Assembly (NCBI GenBank): GCA_001513145.1
Contig: LFSP01000028.1
Coordinates: forward strand, 143 to 38,573
Source of the DNA: Clostridia bacterium DTU025
GTDB taxonomy: Bacteria > Bacillota > DTU025
DNA length: 38,431 bases
Reading direction: 5' to 3'
Both the position numbers and the translations under genes were made by a program. Of this stretch, positions 2,919 to 12,287 are shown one piece after another (position 1 is the first letter of the stretch; the number at the start of each line of letters is the position of its first letter). Below the pieces are notes generated by a model. It had not been told where the DNA came from, made no database searches, and worked only from the letters and a program-made list of their open reading frames with translations.

Positions 2919-3569
2919 GTGTCGAGCCTGAAGCGGTTGGACGACGCCGAACTGGCCCGCATCTACCAGCGGGAACGTTCGGACGCAGCGTATGAGGAGC
3001 TTAGAACCAGGTACTCTCGGGCGATAAGGAGATGGGCGCTGACGTTTTCCATGGCCTACCCCACCTTCGACGCGGAGGACCTCCACCAGGAGGCGGAGGT
3101 AGGGTTCCTCGGGGCGGTGCTGAGATTCGATCCCTCGAAATCCAACATGTATCGGTTCGCGGAGACCTGCGTCAGGAGGCGGCTGTGCACCGTGGCCAGG
3201 CAGTGCCGGAGGGTGCGCAGGATACCTCCGGATAAGGAGGTGCCGCTCATGGGAGATGCTGTGGGATCAGGCTCGGATGCCGATGATGACACACCCCTGA
3301 TCGGGCTCATAGCCGACGCCAACGCGGCGGACCCGGTGAGGGAGGCCCTCAACCGGGAAACCCACACGGAGCTTTGGCGCACAGTGAAGGCGGTTCTGTC
3401 GCCGAAGGAGTTTCAGGTGCTTCAGTGCTACTGTCAGGGAGGTACATATCATCAGCTGGCTGAGCAGCTGGGAATGTCGGTGAAGGCAGTTGACAACGCC
3501 TTAGCCAGAGGCAAGCGCAAGGTGCGGCAGTGCCTTCAGAGGCACTTGGGAAGGTATGACACGGCCTAA
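2919..3569 (+). CDS. RNA polymerase sigma factor, SigH-like
   Basis: A 216-residue sigma-70 family protein, the same size as Bacillus SigH. Region 2 is visible as AEDLHQEAEVGFLGAVLRFDP followed by RFAETCVRRRL, close to the SigH pattern. Region 4 is LSPKEFQVLQCY...YHQLAEQLGMSVKAVDNALARGKRKV, where VKAVDNAL matches the DNA-recognition helix of SigH. Start is GTG at 2919 behind a G-rich ribosome-binding site. The usual sigH neighbours (cysS, secE, nusG) are absent, so this may be a paralogue rather than the main transition-phase sigma factor. It sits alone behind a palindrome and before two WYL regulators. Target genes are unknown. Confidence 0.85.
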   Translation: MSSLKRLDDAELARIYQRERSDAAYEELRTRYSRAIRRWALTFSMAYPTFDAEDLHQEAEVGFLGAVLRFDPSKSNMYRFAETCVRRRLCTVARQCRRVRRIPPDKEVPLMGDAVGSGSDADDDTPLIGLIADANAADPVREALNRETHTELWRTVKAVLSPKEFQVLQCYCQGGTYHQLAEQLGMSVKAVDNALARGKRKVRQCLQRHLGRYDTA

Positions 3570-5971: not shown

Positions 5972-7078
5972 GTGAAGCCAGTCCACTTGATGCACTTCGC
6001 AGACCTTCACCTGGACCACGTGCTCTCCGAATACGGGCCCGCCGCGCGCAGACAGCGCCGCGCCGAACTCCTTCAGTGTTTCGATTTCATCGTCGACAAG
6101 GCCCTGTCGTCAGGCGTCAGCATCCTGCTGGTGGCAGGCGACCTGCTCTGCGCACGCTCCGTGTCAAGCTCCACACTTGAGGCTGTGAAGCGCGGCTTCG
6201 CACGGCTGGGGGAGGCCGGCGTATTCGTGGCCCTGGTGCCCGGCGAGGCCGAGGAGCCCGACGGCCTGGAGGCGCTGCGGGAGGTGGCCAGCGGCAACAA
6301 CGTCCATCTGTTCATGGGAGACGAGTGGTCCAGGGTCGAACCGATCCCAGGCGTGAGCCTGTGGGGCCTGAGGACCACTGGACGCAACGCCAGCATCAGC
6401 GTGCTCGCTGGCCTCAGGGTAGACGGACCCGGCATACACATTGGGCTGATGCACGCCACCACCGAGGGCCAGGGGCCGGACGGCCGCGGCCTGTCCACGG
6501 TCACCGGCGCGGACCTGGCCGCTTCAGGCCTTCACTACCTGGCCCTGGGGCACTACCATTCCGTCCTCAACTGTTCGGTGGGGCCCTCCGCGTGCTGGTA
6601 TCCGGGGTCGCCGGCCCACCACGATTTCTCCACCAGAGGTGAGCGCCACGTGCTCAAGGTCACGCTTGGCGACGGCCCGGCTTCGGTATCGCGGATCACG
6701 GTACCGGCGCGCCCCCACCGCGTGGTGGTGGTGGACGTTTCGGGAAAGCCCGCCGACTACCTGCGACGACGCCTGGCGGACCTCGCCAACCTCGAGCTCT
6801 GCCTGCGGGCGGTGCTGGAGGGAGAGTTGTCAGCGGGCCTGGCATGGCTGCCTGCGCGGCTGGAGCGGGAGTTCGCGCAGAGCTTCTTTCACCTTGACAT
6901 TGTAGACAACACGCGCCCGGCCCGCCCGTCGCTTCCTGGCAACGGACCTGAGGCGCTGCTTTCGAAGGAACGGGGCTCCGGCGGCGACAGGCAGCGAGAC
7001 AGGGCCCTTGCCATCGCCCTGGCGGCGCTGGAGGAGGTGGGAGCCGTTGATCATCAGAAAGATGGCCGTGTGGGGTAG
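5972..7078 (+). CDS. Mre11/SbcD (YhaO-like) metallophosphoesterase, degenerate active site
   Basis: A 368-residue calcineurin-like phosphoesterase related to SbcD/YhaO DNA repair nucleases. Motif I is intact (D11 and H13 in FADLHLD), as are D57 in VAGD, H161 in LMHA, and H194 and H196 in ALGHYH. Two usual elements are lost. The second Asp of GDxxD is Cys60, and the GNHD motif, which supplies a metal-ligand Asn and the catalytic His, is GEAE at 91-94. Nuclease activity is therefore doubtful; a structural or DNA-binding role is more likely. Start is GTG at 5972 with GGAGGAG upstream. It overlaps the next gene, its Rad50/YhaN-like partner, by 32 bases. Confidence 0.85.
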   Translation: MKPVHLMHFADLHLDHVLSEYGPAARRQRRAELLQCFDFIVDKALSSGVSILLVAGDLLCARSVSSSTLEAVKRGFARLGEAGVFVALVPGEAEEPDGLEALREVASGNNVHLFMGDEWSRVEPIPGVSLWGLRTTGRNASISVLAGLRVDGPGIHIGLMHATTEGQGPDGRGLSTVTGADLAASGLHYLALGHYHSVLNCSVGPSACWYPGSPAHHDFSTRGERHVLKVTLGDGPASVSRITVPARPHRVVVVDVSGKPADYLRRRLADLANLELCLRAVLEGELSAGLAWLPARLEREFAQSFFHLDIVDNTRPARPSLPGNGPEALLSKERGSGGDRQRDRALAIALAALEEVGAVDHQKDGRVG

Positions 7079-9386
7079 AAGCGGCCGCTACAGGGCCAAC
7101 CTGGCCCCAGGCCCCGAGTTCAGCGCGGTGAGGCTGGGATCGGCGGAAGCCTGGGAGGCGGCGCGCGAGGCCCTGAGGCTCCTGGCATCCGACCAGCGGC
7201 GCGCGGGGCACCTGCCATATCGGATAGAGCTGACGCTCACTTGCGACGACGGCCGCCGGGCCACGGTGCGTTACGACGGCATGGGCGACGCCTCCGGGTT
7301 CACCGTGAAGGCCGGCGATCCCCCATGCCAACCGGGCCAGCCGCTCCTGGACTGCGTGGAGGTGGAATCGTCTGCGCACGGCACCGCCCTCCGCCTGGCG
7401 CCGCAGCGGGTGGCGGGAGCGGACGTTCGGCGCGTAGCCGCTGCAGTTCAGGCCCTCTCCGCCCACGGCGCCAGGCTCGCCGAGGCCAGGCTGGAGGCTG
7501 ACAGGTGCCGCGACCGCGCCGAGTCGGTGCGGCATATGGGTCGGCTCGCCAGGCAGCTTGAGGCGAGGATCGCATGGATCCGTGAGCGCCTGGCCTTCAT
7601 ATCAGAGCGCCTGTGGAGCTTCGACGCGGCCATGCGCGCGCGGGCCGCCGCGGCAGAGCTTGATGATTACGTCTCCCGGCTGAAGCGGGACTACGCTGCG
7701 GCCTGCGCTGCGCTGAGGTCCGTGGAGGAGGCGGAGGAGGTTGCCAGGCGCGCTGAGGCGGACCCCGCGCTCGCGAGCCCGGCGGCGCGGGTCGGGTGGG
7801 ACGTGGAGGAGGAGATCAGGGAGCTACTGGCGTGTTTGGCCGACGCCGACGCTCAGGCTGCGGAGGCCGAGGCGCGCCAGGCCAGGGCCCAGGCGAGGCT
7901 GGCTGCAGCCAAAGCGGCCCTGACCAGCATCGACCTGGAGCTGGGAGCGATGGACGCTCAGCGTTGCAGTAGGACCACGGCTGTGCAGGCGGCCAGCATC
8001 GCCCAGAGCATCGAGCTGAGGCAACAGAGGATCGAAAGCCTCAAGGCGGAGGTGCAGTCCATCCCCCTGCGTTCCGGATCCCACCGGCTGGGGAAGGCCC
8101 TCACCGTGACCGGGCTCTCTGCCTCCCTGGCATGCCTTGTCGCGCTGATACTTGCTCCCCGCGGGATCGTTCTGGAGGTAGGAGGGTTGGGCGTGCCTCT
8201 GCCTGCGGCGCTCCTCGGGGGGCTGGCTCTGGGGCTGCTCTGCGCCGTCTACGGGCTGTCCGAGGGCATGGAGGTGCAGGCGAGCCTGGAGAGGAGGATG
8301 CAGCTGGACGCCGAGCTGGTGAGCCTTGTCAGGCAGCAGTCGTGGGAGCAGCAGCAGCTCAGGACGTTGCTGGGAGGTAGGGACCTGGACGGTTACATGC
8401 AGGCGCTGGCGCACCAGGACGAGCTGGAGGCGGAGCGGCTGGAGAGGGCGAACGAGGTCGCGGCGGCCCTGGGGCAGGTGATGAACCTGCGAAACCAGGT
8501 GGATTACGTGAGGACCGTGATGACCCGGGCTCGAGAGCGGCTCACGGAGATCTGCGCTGCCATGGGCGTGGGCACTCCTGAGGCGTTCCTAACCCAGGCC
8601 CGCCACTGCACAGAGGCCATGAGGGCTCTGGAGTCCGCCTGGCGAGATGTGGATGCGGCGGCTCACGGATGGCCCACGACGGCGTTGGCCAGCATGCCCG
8701 ACCTCCTGCTGGAGGAGATCGCCGCCGCCGAGGCGGAGCGGGCGGGCTACGCGTGGCCTGGGGACGACTCCCGTTTCGCGGTCCTCTCTGAGGAGCACGG
8801 CATGCGCCTGGAGGAGCAGGAGGGTCTCAGGGATGAACTGGCGCTCCTTGAGGAGCAGCACCGCGCGGTCAAGGCCGAGCTGGAGAGCATCGACATGTGG
8901 GAGTGCGCGAGCCGTCAGGCGGCCGCGGAGGCCGAGGTGAGGAGGCTTGAGGCTGAGGCGCCGGCGGTGGAGATGGCCTGCAAGTGGCTGCGGTCCGTGG
9001 AGCGCAGGATGGTCGAGGCTGCCTGTAACGCCCTGCAGGAGCACGCCACGGAGGTGCTGCAGTTCATGTGCGACGACCGGGACATCGGCCTGGAGTTGGT
9101 TCCCTGCGGCGACCACGTGGAGCTCAAGGTGACGCACCGTGGCCTTGAGCCGGCCCGCCCCGATCATCTGGTGCTTGGGGTGCTGGCCCTGGATGTGGCC
9201 GCCGCGGAGATGCGGGCAGATGAGATCAGACCGCTGGCCGTTCTGGCCGGTGGGGAGGATCCGCCGGAGCTCAAGGCGGCTTTGAGCAGGCTAGCCATGA
9301 TGCGTCAGGTGATGCTGATGCTGCCACCCGAGGGCGCGAGCGCAGAAGCTGCGGACATGGCAGGGACAGGAATCAGCGCCAGGTGA
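7047..9386 (+). CDS. YhaN/Rad50-like coiled-coil protein lacking ATPase motifs
   Basis: A 779-residue partner of the upstream phosphoesterase, starting at TTG 7047 behind GGAGGTGGGAG. Layout follows YhaN: an N-terminal head piece, a long Ala/Glu/Arg-rich coiled coil, two membrane segments in the middle (about 351-372 and 385-405), a second coiled coil, and a C-terminal head piece. Where YhaN has a Walker A loop (GPNEAGKST) this protein has GSAEAWEAA. The expected ABC signature region reads LEPARPDHLVLG, and the Walker B region reads PLAVLAGGEDP, without the Asp-Glu pair. All three ATP-binding elements are gone while surrounding spacing is kept, so it looks like a pseudo-ATPase. Assignment rests on architecture and operon position, not on catalytic motifs. 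Confidence 0.8.
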   Translation: MIIRKMAVWGRSGRYRANLAPGPEFSAVRLGSAEAWEAAREALRLLASDQRRAGHLPYRIELTLTCDDGRRATVRYDGMGDASGFTVKAGDPPCQPGQPLLDCVEVESSAHGTALRLAPQRVAGADVRRVAAAVQALSAHGARLAEARLEADRCRDRAESVRHMGRLARQLEARIAWIRERLAFISERLWSFDAAMRARAAAAELDDYVSRLKRDYAAACAALRSVEEAEEVARRAEADPALASPAARVGWDVEEEIRELLACLADADAQAAEAEARQARAQARLAAAKAALTSIDLELGAMDAQRCSRTTAVQAASIAQSIELRQQRIESLKAEVQSIPLRSGSHRLGKALTVTGLSASLACLVALILAPRGIVLEVGGLGVPLPAALLGGLALGLLCAVYGLSEGMEVQASLERRMQLDAELVSLVRQQSWEQQQLRTLLGGRDLDGYMQALAHQDELEAERLERANEVAAALGQVMNLRNQVDYVRTVMTRARERLTEICAAMGVGTPEAFLTQARHCTEAMRALESAWRDVDAAAHGWPTTALASMPDLLLEEIAAAEAERAGYAWPGDDSRFAVLSEEHGMRLEEQEGLRDELALLEEQHRAVKAELESIDMWECASRQAAAEAEVRRLEAEAPAVEMACKWLRSVERRMVEAACNALQEHATEVLQFMCDDRDIGLELVPCGDHVELKVTHRGLEPARPDHLVLGVLALDVAAAEMRADEIRPLAVLAGGEDPPELKAALSRLAMMRQVMLMLPPEGASAEAADMAGTGISAR

Positions 9387-9403
9387 CGTCAGGCGTATTT
9401 CGC

Positions 9404-9437
9404 AGACAGGCCGCTATACCTTGTGTAGCGGCTGTCT
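9404..9437 (+). terminator. Stem-loop after the YhaN-like gene
   Basis: AGACAG plus CCGCTA (9404-9416, one-base bulge) pairs with TAGCGGCTGTCT (9426-9437). The downstream sequence TGTGTACAGG is not a clean T tract, so termination may be partial. Confidence 0.5.
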
Positions 9438-9475
9438 TGTGTACAGGAAGCGGAATACCAGGGGCTACGTGGGGC

Positions 9476-9504
9476 TTGACTGGCAAAGGATGGCATGATA
9501 TGCT
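9476..9504 (+). promoter_or_regulatory. Promoter of the LuxR-type regulator gene
   Basis: TTGACT (9476-9481), a 17-base spacer and TATGCT (9499-9504), with extended -10 TG at 9496-9497. This places the transcript start near 9511. It rules out an ATG at 9495 and supports the start at 9537 behind AGGGGAGGG. Confidence 0.75.
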
Positions 9505-9536
9505 TCATATGGTATTTCGCAGGGGAGGGAAGCCGC

Positions 9537-9989
9537 ATGTACGACTCAGGTGAGAGCGGAGCCGCAGGTGCGGCCGAGGCAGGCGGGGCCCTCAAGGCGG
9601 CAACCGTCCAGTGGCCGTCGGGGCAGGTGATCGTGTGTCCGATGTGGGCGGCGATGAGCAGGGTCACCGTGGGCAAGGGCAAGGCGCCCGCCGCAGCCCC
9701 TGATTTCACGGTGGCCAGGGAGAGCCCGCCGCCGAAGCTTACCGACACGGAACAGCGGGTGATCGAGCTGATGGCGCAGGGGCTGTCAAACGCAGCCATA
9801 GCATCGCGTCTGTACGTGTCGGTGAACACGGTGAAGACCCACGTCAGGTCCATCTTCCACAAGCTGGGCGTGCACAACAGGAGCATGGCAGTGGCCTATG
9901 CCCTGGCGTCAGGCATCATCGACATCTCCAGCTCCCTAATTCACCTCGTCGGTTCGCCCGTTCAGGCGGTCCACGAACGCCCCGAATGA
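9537..9989 (+). CDS. LuxR/GerE-type helix-turn-helix regulator
   Basis: A 150-residue protein whose C-terminal half (residues 68-128) is a LuxR/GerE DNA-binding domain: LTDTEQRVIELMAQGLSN, then AAIASRLYVSVNTVKTHV and RSIFHKLGVHNR. The N-terminal 65 residues are Ala/Gly-rich and carry no receiver or recognised ligand domain, so the mode of control is not evident; short GerE-like regulators often act alone. Start ATG 9537 is preceded by a strong AGGGGAGGG. It is the first gene of a cassette with a small peptide, a radical SAM enzyme and a CPBP protease, and probably activates them. The peptide gene starts 72 bases after its stop, with a -10 box but no good -35, as expected of an activator-dependent promoter. 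Confidence 0.85.
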   Translation: MYDSGESGAAGAAEAGGALKAATVQWPSGQVIVCPMWAAMSRVTVGKGKAPAAAPDFTVARESPPPKLTDTEQRVIELMAQGLSNAAIASRLYVSVNTVKTHVRSIFHKLGVHNRSMAVAYALASGIIDISSSLIHLVGSPVQAVHERPE

Positions 9990-9998
9990 TGGTAGCAT
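9990..9998 (+). promoter_or_regulatory. Extended -10 box before the small peptide gene
   Basis: TGGTAGCAT (9990-9998) is a TGn-extended -10. No good -35 hexamer lies 17 bases upstream (TCCACG). This would place the transcript start near 10005 and suggests help from an activator, plausibly the adjacent LuxR-type protein. Confidence 0.45.
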
Positions 9999-10061
9999 AT
10001 GGGTGCAAGCGCGACCGCGGCAACGGTGCGAACCATCTCGAAGGTGTCGGAGGTGAGTGTC

Positions 10062-10163
10062 ATGTTCAAGGTGATGGCCGGCCGTGGCCCTAGGGCGAAC
10101 GTGTCGATCAACGGCATCTGCATTTCCTTCCCGCTCTGGGGCTACATCATCACCATCGGCTGA
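10062..10163 (+). CDS. Candidate RiPP precursor peptide, 33 residues
   Basis: ATG at 10062 is preceded by GGAGG with an 8-base spacer, an ideal ribosome-binding site. The peptide begins MFKVMAGRGPRANVS and ends in a hydrophobic, aromatic stretch (INGICISFPLWGY, then IITIG). It has one Cys (residue 20), one Trp and one Tyr in a WGY motif. I match it to no named family; a loose echo of the mycofactocin tail (IDGMCGVY) is noted only as a resemblance. An in-frame ATG at 9999 would add 21 residues but overlaps the putative -10 box and has no ribosome site. The next gene is a radical SAM/SPASM enzyme with a leader-binding N-terminus, then a CPBP protease, so a modified-peptide precursor is the simplest reading. 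A hydrophobic pheromone or small membrane peptide is the alternative. Confidence 0.65.
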   Translation: MFKVMAGRGPRANVSINGICISFPLWGYIITIG

Positions 10164-10179
10164 TCCCGCCGAGAGCCTG

Positions 10180-10210
10180 GGGAACCGACCTCCCCGGCCG
10201 GTTGGTTCCC
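10180..10210 (+). promoter_or_regulatory. Stem-loop between peptide gene and radical SAM gene
   Basis: Arms GGGAACCGACC (10180-10190) and GGTTGGTTCCC (10200-10210) give 11 pairs including one G-U around a 9-base loop. No T tract follows. Such intercistronic hairpins in peptide clusters partly stop transcription or protect the precursor message, making peptide in excess over enzyme. Confidence 0.7.
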
Positions 10211-10230
10211 GCCCACCGTAGGAGGAGGCG

Positions 10231-11625
10231 ATGTCCGTGATGGACAGGTCTCGAGTGTACAAGCTTTCCCAGGGTACCCAGATGATCCAGGGAGCCCACG
10301 GCACCCTTCTCGTCAACGTCGAGCGGGGGTCGTGGGCCAAGCTGTCGCCTGAGGCCGGCGGATACCTCAGCGCTGTGCTGGGAGTAAGCGTGGGCAGCGT
10401 CTGCGACAAGCTGCTTGAGAGGCACGGTCCCTCTGCCGCAGCGGAATTCGTCTCCACGCTGGAAAACCTGACGCGAATGGGCCTGCTTGACCAGCACGTG
10501 GGCTTCGGTCACGTGCGTGAAGGACATCCGGTTGGGGGATGGGCTCAGACGTGGCGGATCAGGCGGCCGCAGCGTGCGTACTTCGTGGTCACAGAGAACT
10601 GCAATCTCCGCTGCTCAACGTGCTACCGCGGTTTTCAAGGGGTGGAAGCCTCGCCGGATGAGGCCCGGCGCTCCGCCCAGTGGATCGCACAGCTCGGGCC
10701 TGATGAAGTGGTGGTAACAGGGGGAGAGCCCGCCCTCAGGAACGACCTTTTCGACCTGATCGGCATCGTGTCGGCTGGCGCGAAACGCACCGTGCTGTCC
10801 ACCAACGCCACCATCATTGACACGGCCACAGCTCGGCGCATCGCACAGCTCGGCTGCGACGTGCAGGTGAGCGTCGAGTCGCCCGACCCCGACGTTCACG
10901 ATTCGGTGCGGGGCGAAGGTTCCCACATGGCTACGGTGCGCGGCGTAGAAAACCTGGTGGCCGCAGGCGTGCGCCGCCTGGAGCTGGTGACCACCGTGGG
11001 CAACCTGTCAGGCTTCAAACCCGACGCCATGGAGGATTTCAGCAGGAAGCTAGGCGCCACCTACCACGTTAGCCTCTTTCAGCCCGTGGGCAGAGGCTCG
11101 ACGAAAGCTCTTCCCCTGGAGGACGCGTTCACCTTCGCCGGCGCCCTCATCGATCACCTGGAGGCCTGCTGGCGTCGGGCCCGCGGGCCGGCACGCTCCA
11201 CTCTGGACCGAATGATGCATCCGGAGCCCCGCGCGCGCTGCGGCGCGGGGGAGAGGGTGATCGCCGTCTCGGCTCGCGGGATGGTGTACCCATGTCACCT
11301 CCTCTACAACCCCGAGATGGCCATAAGCTTGGATCACGCCGAGGAGCTCATGAGGGAGCGCGGTGAGATTCGGGCGTGGGTGCTGCCTGACGTCGATACC
11401 ATGCCAGGCTGCAGAAACTGCGATGTGAGGTACTTCTGCGGCGGAGGATGCAGGGCCGCGGCGTTGCAGGTGAGCAGCGATATCTCGGGGCAGGATCCTC
11501 GGTGTCACGGATACCGTGCGTTCTTCAGGAGCATGATGTGGGCGTGGCAGGATGGGCGCGCTGTCGGCGAGAACCTGAGGTCTGCGAGGGAGATGCTGCG
11601 ATGTCAGCGGGAACTGCGGCAGTGA
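10231..11625 (+). CDS. Radical SAM/SPASM peptide-modifying enzyme with PqqD-like N-terminus
   Basis: A 464-residue enzyme starting at ATG 10231 behind GGAGGAGG. Residues about 1-90 resemble a PqqD/RRE leader-binding domain (GTLLVNVERGSWAKLSPEAG, then a helical part). The radical SAM motif is CNLRCSTC (C124, C128, C131), followed by VVTGGEPALR. The C-terminal SPASM domain has C337, C355, C394, C397, C403, C407 and C425, the seven-Cys pattern that holds two auxiliary iron-sulfur clusters. Such enzymes crosslink or otherwise modify ribosomal peptides; the likely substrate is the 33-residue product encoded 67 bases upstream. It shares architecture, not close sequence, with the SCIFF maturase at 1330-2838. 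The reaction cannot be predicted; with a single Cys and several aromatics in the peptide, a C-C or one thioether link are both possible. Confidence 0.9.
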   Translation: MSVMDRSRVYKLSQGTQMIQGAHGTLLVNVERGSWAKLSPEAGGYLSAVLGVSVGSVCDKLLERHGPSAAAEFVSTLENLTRMGLLDQHVGFGHVREGHPVGGWAQTWRIRRPQRAYFVVTENCNLRCSTCYRGFQGVEASPDEARRSAQWIAQLGPDEVVVTGGEPALRNDLFDLIGIVSAGAKRTVLSTNATIIDTATARRIAQLGCDVQVSVESPDPDVHDSVRGEGSHMATVRGVENLVAAGVRRLELVTTVGNLSGFKPDAMEDFSRKLGATYHVSLFQPVGRGSTKALPLEDAFTFAGALIDHLEACWRRARGPARSTLDRMMHPEPRARCGAGERVIAVSARGMVYPCHLLYNPEMAISLDHAEELMRERGEIRAWVLPDVDTMPGCRNCDVRYFCGGGCRAAALQVSSDISGQDPRCHGYRAFFRSMMWAWQDGRAVGENLRSAREMLRCQRELRQ

Positions 11626-12287
11626 CCGCGATCGTTGTGGCGTCGGCGACGGCTCGGGCGTTGGCTTGGAGGAGGCTGGGCGTCTCCAGCATCGATATCG
11701 GGGACATGCTCCTTGTGGCGATGTTCGCAGTGGCCTTGCTTGGCAGGTGCGACCCGGCTGTGTCGTTCGGCATAATCGGCAGGTTGCGTTGGACCGCGGT
11801 GGCCGGAAGCGCCGCGCTGTTCTTGGCAGGCGCGGCCGTGGGCAGCGGCTGGCGCGATCGCCTGTGGGATAAGTGGCGCCGGTGGATGGAACGCGCAGGG
11901 GTGAACCCGGGTGGGGCCGCCATCGCCGTGGGGCTGGCGCCGGCGAGCTGGCGCATGGCGGCGGCTGCGGCGCTCACGGCGTCAGGGGCATTGCTCGAGG
12001 AGATGCTGTTCAGGGGGTTCCTTCTGAGGTGGGTGAGGGAGCTTGTGGGATTCTGGTGGGCCGTGGCGGCGCAGGCGGTGGCGTTCGGGCTGGTCCACGC
12101 GGTACCCATGGCGCGAGCCGGGGCGCCTGCGCCACTGGTGGCTTACTGCATGCTGATGCCCGCCGGAATCGGGCTCGGGCTGGGGGCGCTGGCCAGATGG
12201 GGGCTGGTCTACCCGTGGGCGGTGCACTGGGCGCTGAACTGGTGGGCGGCGGTGCGAGGCGGGGGCCGAGAGGATAACGGTAAGTAA
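11601..12287 (+). CDS. CPBP family intramembrane metalloprotease
   Basis: A 228-residue polytopic membrane protein of the CPBP (CAAX protease/bacteriocin-processing, Abi) family. The diagnostic motifs are present: E133-E134-x3-R138 in LLEEMLFRG, F162-x3-H166 in FGLVH, and H209-x3-N213 in HWALN, the glutamate-based catalytic and zinc site. Start ATG 11601 lies 25 bases inside the radical SAM gene with GAGGGAG upstream, so it is coupled to it. In known clusters CPBP proteins remove leaders, process peptide pheromones or give immunity. Here it would plausibly release or export-couple the modified peptide; there is no ABC exporter in the cassette. Function is inferred from motifs and context. Confidence 0.85.
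   Translation: MSAGTAAVTAIVVASATARALAWRRLGVSSIDIGDMLLVAMFAVALLGRCDPAVSFGIIGRLRWTAVAGSAALFLAGAAVGSGWRDRLWDKWRRWMERAGVNPGGAAIAVGLAPASWRMAAAAALTASGALLEEMLFRGFLLRWVRELVGFWWAVAAQAVAFGLVHAVPMARAGAPAPLVAYCMLMPAGIGLGLGALARWGLVYPWAVHWALNWWAAVRGGGREDNGK

Follow-up and report, generated by a model that had tools for sequence, protein, structure and literature searches.

What does a frame of 33 codons do directly in front of a gene for a radical-SAM enzyme: is it a gene at all, would its product be the substrate of that enzyme, and what would the cell use the product for? Radical-SAM peptides mostly differ between strains and have the look of weapons. A few (SCIFF, PQQ and mycofactocin) change little across whole clades and mark needed cell functions. 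The frame lies in a stretch of 38,431 nucleotides from Clostridia bacterium DTU025, the whole of which is called the window here. Very probably it encodes the precursor of a radical-SAM-modified peptide (RiPP) that belongs to a new family, and we infer that the neighbouring enzyme modifies this precursor. The features of the locus are as follows.

9409..9433, plus strand: terminator-like stem before the operon and after an SbcC-like gene (one found, against an expectation of 0.2 from shuffled sequence; by consensus match only)
9476..9504, plus strand: promoter-like site before the LuxR-type gene, likely the operon promoter (9/12, with TG ahead of the second hexamer; chance would give 0.5; weak, consensus only)
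9537..9989, plus strand: LuxR-type (GerE) HTH regulator gene (PF00196, E 1.8e-17)
10049..10053, plus strand: Shine-Dalgarno GGAGG of the peptide gene, 8 bases upstream of ATG 10062
10062..10163, plus strand: gene of the 33-residue putative precursor peptide, start ATG, stop TGA
10180..10210, plus strand: 11-bp inverted repeat between the peptide and enzyme genes, arms 10180-10190 and 10200-10210
10231..11625, plus strand: radical-SAM/SPASM peptide maturase, 464 residues, with an RRE-like N-terminal domain (about residues 5-90), CX3CX2C and seven SPASM cysteines
11601..12287, plus strand: CPBP/Rce1-like intramembrane protease, 228 residues (PF02517, E 1.4e-11)

A conserved gene of 33 codons

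A search for the 33 residues in related genomes, as proposed in an earlier reading of the sequence alone, finds homologues in 28 of the 29 genomes that represent two classes. They are present in 11 of the 12 genomes of the window's own class (the same 12 represent the whole order as sampled) and in all 17 of the second class, with one match each, and the single genome lacking a match is 72% complete and has its enzyme gene cut at a contig edge. Of 41 genomes searched for the enzyme gene, thirteen (G000-G012) hold close relatives (E 1.3e-29 or better); a homologous 33-residue frame stands directly before the enzyme in 12 of the 12 with upstream DNA, G007 being left out because its enzyme copy is cut at the contig start. 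A profile of these 12 homologues matched 20 of 299 genomes sampled across the phylum, all confined to the two classes and nine of them outside the profile-building set (families f51 and f116), and a 21-row profile matched all seven second-class genomes outside its own building set (E 1.9e-17 or better). The contig scan for further loci used two enzyme patterns and is non-exhaustive. A six-frame search near other radical-SAM relatives (L048-L070, L015-L025 and L038, among them Omnitrophota, Acidobacteriota, Anaerolineae and Olsenella) gave no peptide match below E 1 except copies of the same Bacillota genomes. Pfam and NCBIfam place the window peptide in no family, and among the 28 peptides yield only stray single-member matches.

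The alignment of the 28 peptides is gapless, every one being 33 residues long. Six residues never vary (G7, C20, F23, W26, T31, G33), and three positions take one of two residues (F/Y at 2, K/R at 8, I/V at 16); position 11 is usually basic. A second cysteine (C25) appears in 2 of the 28, and this fits the earlier argument from a single cysteine against a multi-ring thioether peptide. A dN/dS comparison across homologues had also been suggested: in the 22 closest pairs (from 21 of the later 28 sequences) dN is far below dS, at 0.03-0.15 against 0.20-1.48, with 0.13 and 0.55 for G000 and G004. Divergence by codon position in the 21 sequences is 0.38/0.26/0.58. Four of the other five frames contain stops in 8 to 21 of the 21 sequences, and none of the five has a synonymous excess as strong as that of the peptide frame. 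Judged by these substitutions the frame is under purifying selection, and its homologues mark it as a genuine gene that has been conserved. The sequence-only reading had staked its case on amino-acid conservation, which is found: the frame is ungapped in 28 genomes, selected for its protein sequence and always flanked by LuxR-type and radical-SAM genes.

The translation of 10062-10163 is MFKVMAGRGPRANVSINGICISFPLWGYIITIG. The 33-residue frame with its near-ideal GGAGG at 8-base spacing, and the 67 bases from its stop to the radical-SAM ATG at 10231, had been described before and hold on the window sequence. Which start is used, 10062 or an in-frame ATG at 9999, had been left to further work, and the comparison favours 10062. 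All 28 homologues have a ribosome site (GGAGG or GGGGG) 7-10 bases before the equivalent codon, and that codon is ATG or GTG in 27 of them; in the last (G161) the first of the 33 codons is ATC, so that a GTG three codons earlier may be the real start. In G008 an in-frame stop just upstream of the equivalent codon leaves no room for a 54-residue form. Together, the ribosome sites, the start codons and the closed frame of G008 argue for 33 residues, not 54, and on this comparative evidence the true start is 10062. The longer start at 9999 was considered and rejected on the G008 stop, the position of the ribosome site and the little extension sequence that is shared, a short ASAT stretch common only to the closest pair, G000 and G004. 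A -10 box said to overlap ATG 9999 did not hold up: the only promoter-like site that the consensus scan gives is that at 9476-9504, ahead of the LuxR-type gene.

The operon and its enzyme

The terminator-like stem and the promoter-like site bracket the start of the operon. The LuxR-type gene begins at ATG 9537 with a GGGAGG site, an earlier in-frame ATG (9495) lying inside the promoter-like site. This gene is upstream of the peptide in 28 of 28 loci and the radical-SAM gene downstream in as many. The CPBP gene, whose first 25 bases are shared with the end of the enzyme gene, follows the enzyme in all 26 loci that reach so far, the other two ending at contig ends. By sequence its product has the marks of a CPBP intramembrane protease (EExxxR, FxxxH and HxxxN with PF02517), and in the 28 loci the motifs EExxFR, FxxxH and HxxxN are present in 24 of the 25 open reading frames found by pattern, the 25th being truncated where its contig ends. 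The pattern gave nothing at the other three loci; two of these stop short of the gene, and in G008 tblastn does give a match. An ABC-transporter ATPase gene follows the CPBP gene in 11 of the 28 loci, all of the second class; in the window's own class no exporter was found beside the cassette, and Obg is downstream in the window and seven relatives.

The enzyme is of the peptide-modifying kind, as had been claimed from the sequence. It combines an RRE-like domain, a radical-SAM core (CX3CX2C at C124, C128 and C131) and seven SPASM cysteines, the last kept in 19 of 19 aligned enzymes. Its closest solved structure is CteB, with SkfB the second-best relative (profile matches at 1.4e-33 and 1e-30, then PqqE at 1.9e-24), and the CteB and SkfB alignments both extend into the N-terminal region. 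The AlphaFold2 model of the enzyme (pLDDT 88.4) has strands and helices at residues 8-82; VIA-align superposes residues 15-447 on CteB (Z 24.5, rmsd 6.0, 384 aligned) and residues 5-443 on TigE (Z 20.2, rmsd 4.8, 376 aligned). In the model the N-terminal domain qualifies as RRE-like (PqqD-like), aligning with the RREs of CteB and TigE, with residues outside 105-429 barely tested by most rows. A short conserved reading frame adjoining a SPASM radical-SAM enzyme with a recognition domain is the general hallmark of a radical-SAM RiPP, and it is what the locus contains.

Among the NCBIfam matches listed, neither this enzyme nor any of four homologues reaches an equivalog cut-off. The best of those listed for the window enzyme is StsB (NF045574), at 126.3 bits against a cut-off of 625; it scores 99.1 against 265 for the mycofactocin maturase MftC (TIGR03962), a model that is among the better matches and gives 48-142 bits over five enzymes, and 42.8 against 425 for the SCIFF maturase ScfB (TIGR03974). 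SkfB (TIGR04403, cut-off 300) gives 64.8 bits for one homologue and is not among the matches listed for the window enzyme. With every equivalog cut-off out of reach, the type of bond is not readable from family membership. In a tree with several long branches and unsure outer placements, the 19 new enzymes group in a single branch, separated from the nearest outsiders with support 91/71; it adjoins one enzyme of Omnitrophota and one of Olsenella (joint branch 98/97), and two MftC sequences lie apart from it. In front of the closest of the outside enzymes, that of an Omnitrophota genome, three small frames follow one another (L048:10-523); they start MFEILY, MFEILY and MFDVLY, have GGAGG-like sites, cysteines and IGV...C...IG-type tails, and are perhaps a divergent, three-precursor version of the same system.

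The inverted repeat between peptide and enzyme has the arms GGGAACCGACC and GGTTGGTTCCC, and could possibly be an RNA processing or attenuation element. Related arms, with changes that look compensating, follow the peptide in most relatives of the same family. In most homologues the peptide gene is followed by a stable hairpin; across the 28 loci, no more than 101 of 1028 control stretches are as stable. In the window itself the intergenic RNA is no more stable than shuffled sequence (z -0.20), the consensus scan gives no canonical terminator between the two genes, and no named RNA family was found in 9380-10300.

Two explanations would deny the peptide any role as a substrate. A frame of only 33 codons may be open by chance, and its length is what speaks for this; with 28 ungapped homologues, purifying selection and a ribosome site that is kept, the probability is vanishingly small. 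The frame could otherwise encode a regulatory leader peptide, causing ribosome arrest or attenuation ahead of the enzyme and protease genes. Its shortness, its conservation up to the last residue and the strong hairpin behind it in most homologues would fit such a part. Against it, the distance from stop to hairpin ranges from below 10 to above 60 bases, that from stop to enzyme start varies widely, the window hairpin is not followed by a T-run of the terminator type, and every homologue is coupled to an enzyme of the peptide-modifying type, which makes a leader peptide very improbable, though less remote than chance.

Proposed modification and use of the product

If the peptide is a substrate, its basic N-terminal part (G7, K/R8 and the usually basic position 11) would be held by the RRE-like domain, and the lone Cys20 would enter the active site. 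In CteB, according to part of the text of PMC6231123, auxiliary cluster I has an open site that is occupied by the substrate cysteine; by analogy, the seven SPASM cysteines of the window enzyme may leave such a site for Cys20. Radical chemistry would then join Cys20 to a residue across a C-terminal beta-hairpin with its turn at W26-G27, T31 and G33 being the likeliest partners. The peptide model has strands at 20-25 and 28-32 around that turn and is poor (mean pLDDT 58, pTM 0.23), so that the register of the hairpin is a guess. Ideal pairing in this weak model sets C20 opposite G33 and residue 22 opposite T31, and a Cys20 thioether to T31 or G33 is therefore rated highest, at somewhat under an even chance. 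Some other crosslink of Cys20 is appreciably less probable, and the same small share goes to a carbon-carbon crosslink of F23 and W26, whose conservation would suit such a bond equally; other chemistry takes what is left. We would guess that the CPBP protein trims the peptide, perhaps at the junction of small residues, Gly7 and basic residues, or frees it from the membrane.

A signal or cofactor that serves the producing cell and its kin is a likelier use than an antibiotic, given how little the core varies and that one copy is present in nearly every genome of two classes. A signal is our best guess, with a cofactor in second place. Spo0A is over the cut-off in 24 of the 29 genomes. Two of the five below it (G006 and G257) have fragments of it cut at contig edges; the remaining three make up family f3 (G009, G010 and G011, with loci L036, L037 and L035), which keeps the cassette with no Spo0A over the cut-off, one of its genomes being 98% complete. 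Sister families do have Spo0A, and f3 has probably lost sporulation and kept the peptide cassette, which makes sporulation unlikely as the sole use. For comparison, SCIFF peptides, whose retention is similar, are reported, in the portion of a review that bears on them (PMC8102284), to affect the expression of Agr and sporulation genes in C. beijerinckii.

Two known kinds of product offer other readings. The cassette has a gene order of the same type as skfA-skfB-skfC-skfEF (given in a section of PMC8172795), and could encode a toxin or bacteriocin like the sporulation killing factor, with an SkfB-like enzyme, an SkfC-like protease or immunity protein and an exporter; SkfB as second-best solved relative, the transporter genes behind the cassette in 11 of 28 loci and the Spo0A count are in keeping with this. 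It is nevertheless an unlikely reading, since bacteriocins are expected to change fast and to be patchy and this core is near-invariant over two classes with one match per genome, the cassette persists in f3, the window's own class has no exporter beside it, and the enzyme has a seven-cysteine SPASM domain where SkfB has a Twitch domain (as worded in part of PMC6231123). Slightly less unlikely is a precursor that, like those of mycofactocin or PQQ, yields a cofactor, the modified residues being excised as a small redox molecule. The strict conservation of the peptide and its retention in so many genomes would suit this, the motif around I-[DN]-G-x-C resembles an MftA tail (LAIDGICGVY) from two genomes of the same phylum, and the model for the mycofactocin maturase ranks with the enzymes' better NCBIfam matches. 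However, the peptide profile gives MftA 6-7 bits (E about 1-2, with 2 of 4000 shuffled sequences scoring higher), the MftC sequences stay outside the new clade, no mycofactocin accessory genes were noticed in the operon, and the peptide ends in Gly, MftA in Val-Tyr.

The boldest reading is a second SCIFF-like system, near-universal and nearly invariant in two bacterial classes, in which a single crosslink from Cys20 to the tail (T31 or the C-terminal G33) would lock a beta-hairpin and an intramembrane protease would crop it. The product would belong to the core genome and act as a signal or cofactor that LuxR-type regulation controls and that does not depend on sporulation. In all its parts together we hold it tentatively, as possible rather than probable.

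Comparison with known systems

The window contains a genuine SCIFF pair as a separate locus.

1247-1399: SCIFF precursor ScfA, 50 residues, six cysteines (70.3 bits, cut-off 50)
within 1330-2838: SCIFF maturase ScfB (518.8 bits, cut-off 425), its true start probably after 1399
2919-3569: SigH-like sigma factor gene near ScfB (90 bits, where the cut-off for spore SigH is 294.8)

Between the two loci, behind a gene for a WYL regulator, 5972-9386 encodes an SbcD/Mre11-like nuclease and a large SbcC-like protein for which Pfam has no match; G004 conserves the whole block and G003 part of it.

The window thus holds two uncharacterised conserved systems, SCIFF and the new peptide, which are adjacent in one family (in f3 a ScfB relative lies directly upstream of the peptide cassette), and having the two together makes the role of core RiPPs testable by comparison. 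The new system adds a further case of clade-wide conservation with a minimal precursor, 33 residues and one cysteine, small enough for direct synthesis and assay. If the product is indeed a signal or cofactor, it would join the few clade-wide RiPP systems that serve needed cell functions. The system is apparently unnamed: in the open-licence literature no paper was found that joins a radical-SAM precursor peptide (RiPP) with CPBP/CAAX and LuxR proteins, and none on a radical-SAM RiPP in Limnochordia, although the system may be described elsewhere.

With SCIFF (ScfA/ScfB; CteA/CteB, Tte1186) it shares a small precursor widely kept in its clade and a SPASM enzyme with an RRE. SCIFF peptides, however, have six cysteines in 45 residues, and the window peptide, with one (two in 2 of the 28 homologues), has no match to the ScfA model (TIGR03973; six cysteines in the C-terminal 45 residues), just as its enzyme is far below the ScfB cut-off. 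A Cys-Thr thioether is reported for SCIFF, and a Cys-to-Gly thioether is known for streptosactin (both in a section of PMC8172795). The streptosactin/StsB sactipeptides also have a short precursor, and StsB is the best NCBIfam match of the enzyme among those listed; at 126 bits against 625 the enzyme differs from them, and the peptide has no match.

Mycofactocin (MftA/MftB/MftC) is alike in an IDGxC-like peptide motif, a conserved precursor and an enzyme of the same broad SPASM group. The motif match is not significant, the enzyme is on a separate branch, and the recognition domain, fused in the window enzyme, is a separate protein in mycofactocin; a search with the MftA model (TIGR03969, cut-off 25 bits) gives no match in G000 and matches none of the 28 peptides. 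MftA copies ending LAIDGICGVY occur at L103:3851 and at L104, minus strand, 6176, with MftC-like genes nearby. Kinship with MftA (LAIDGIC against INGIC or IDGYC) was considered, rejected on the profile scores, the shuffles and the separate branch, and kept only as a lead.

The sporulation killing factor (SkfA-SkfB-SkfC-SkfEF) likewise joins a peptide with few cysteines to an RRE-bearing radical-SAM enzyme, a putative protease and an ABC transporter, and SkfC is a CPBP protein. Unlike it, the window system has a full SPASM domain, a LuxR-type regulator and a nearly invariant core, and is present without Spo0A in one family. By analogy, then, the gene layout recalls the sporulation killing factor, and the near-universal, near-invariant retention recalls SCIFF, PQQ or mycofactocin.
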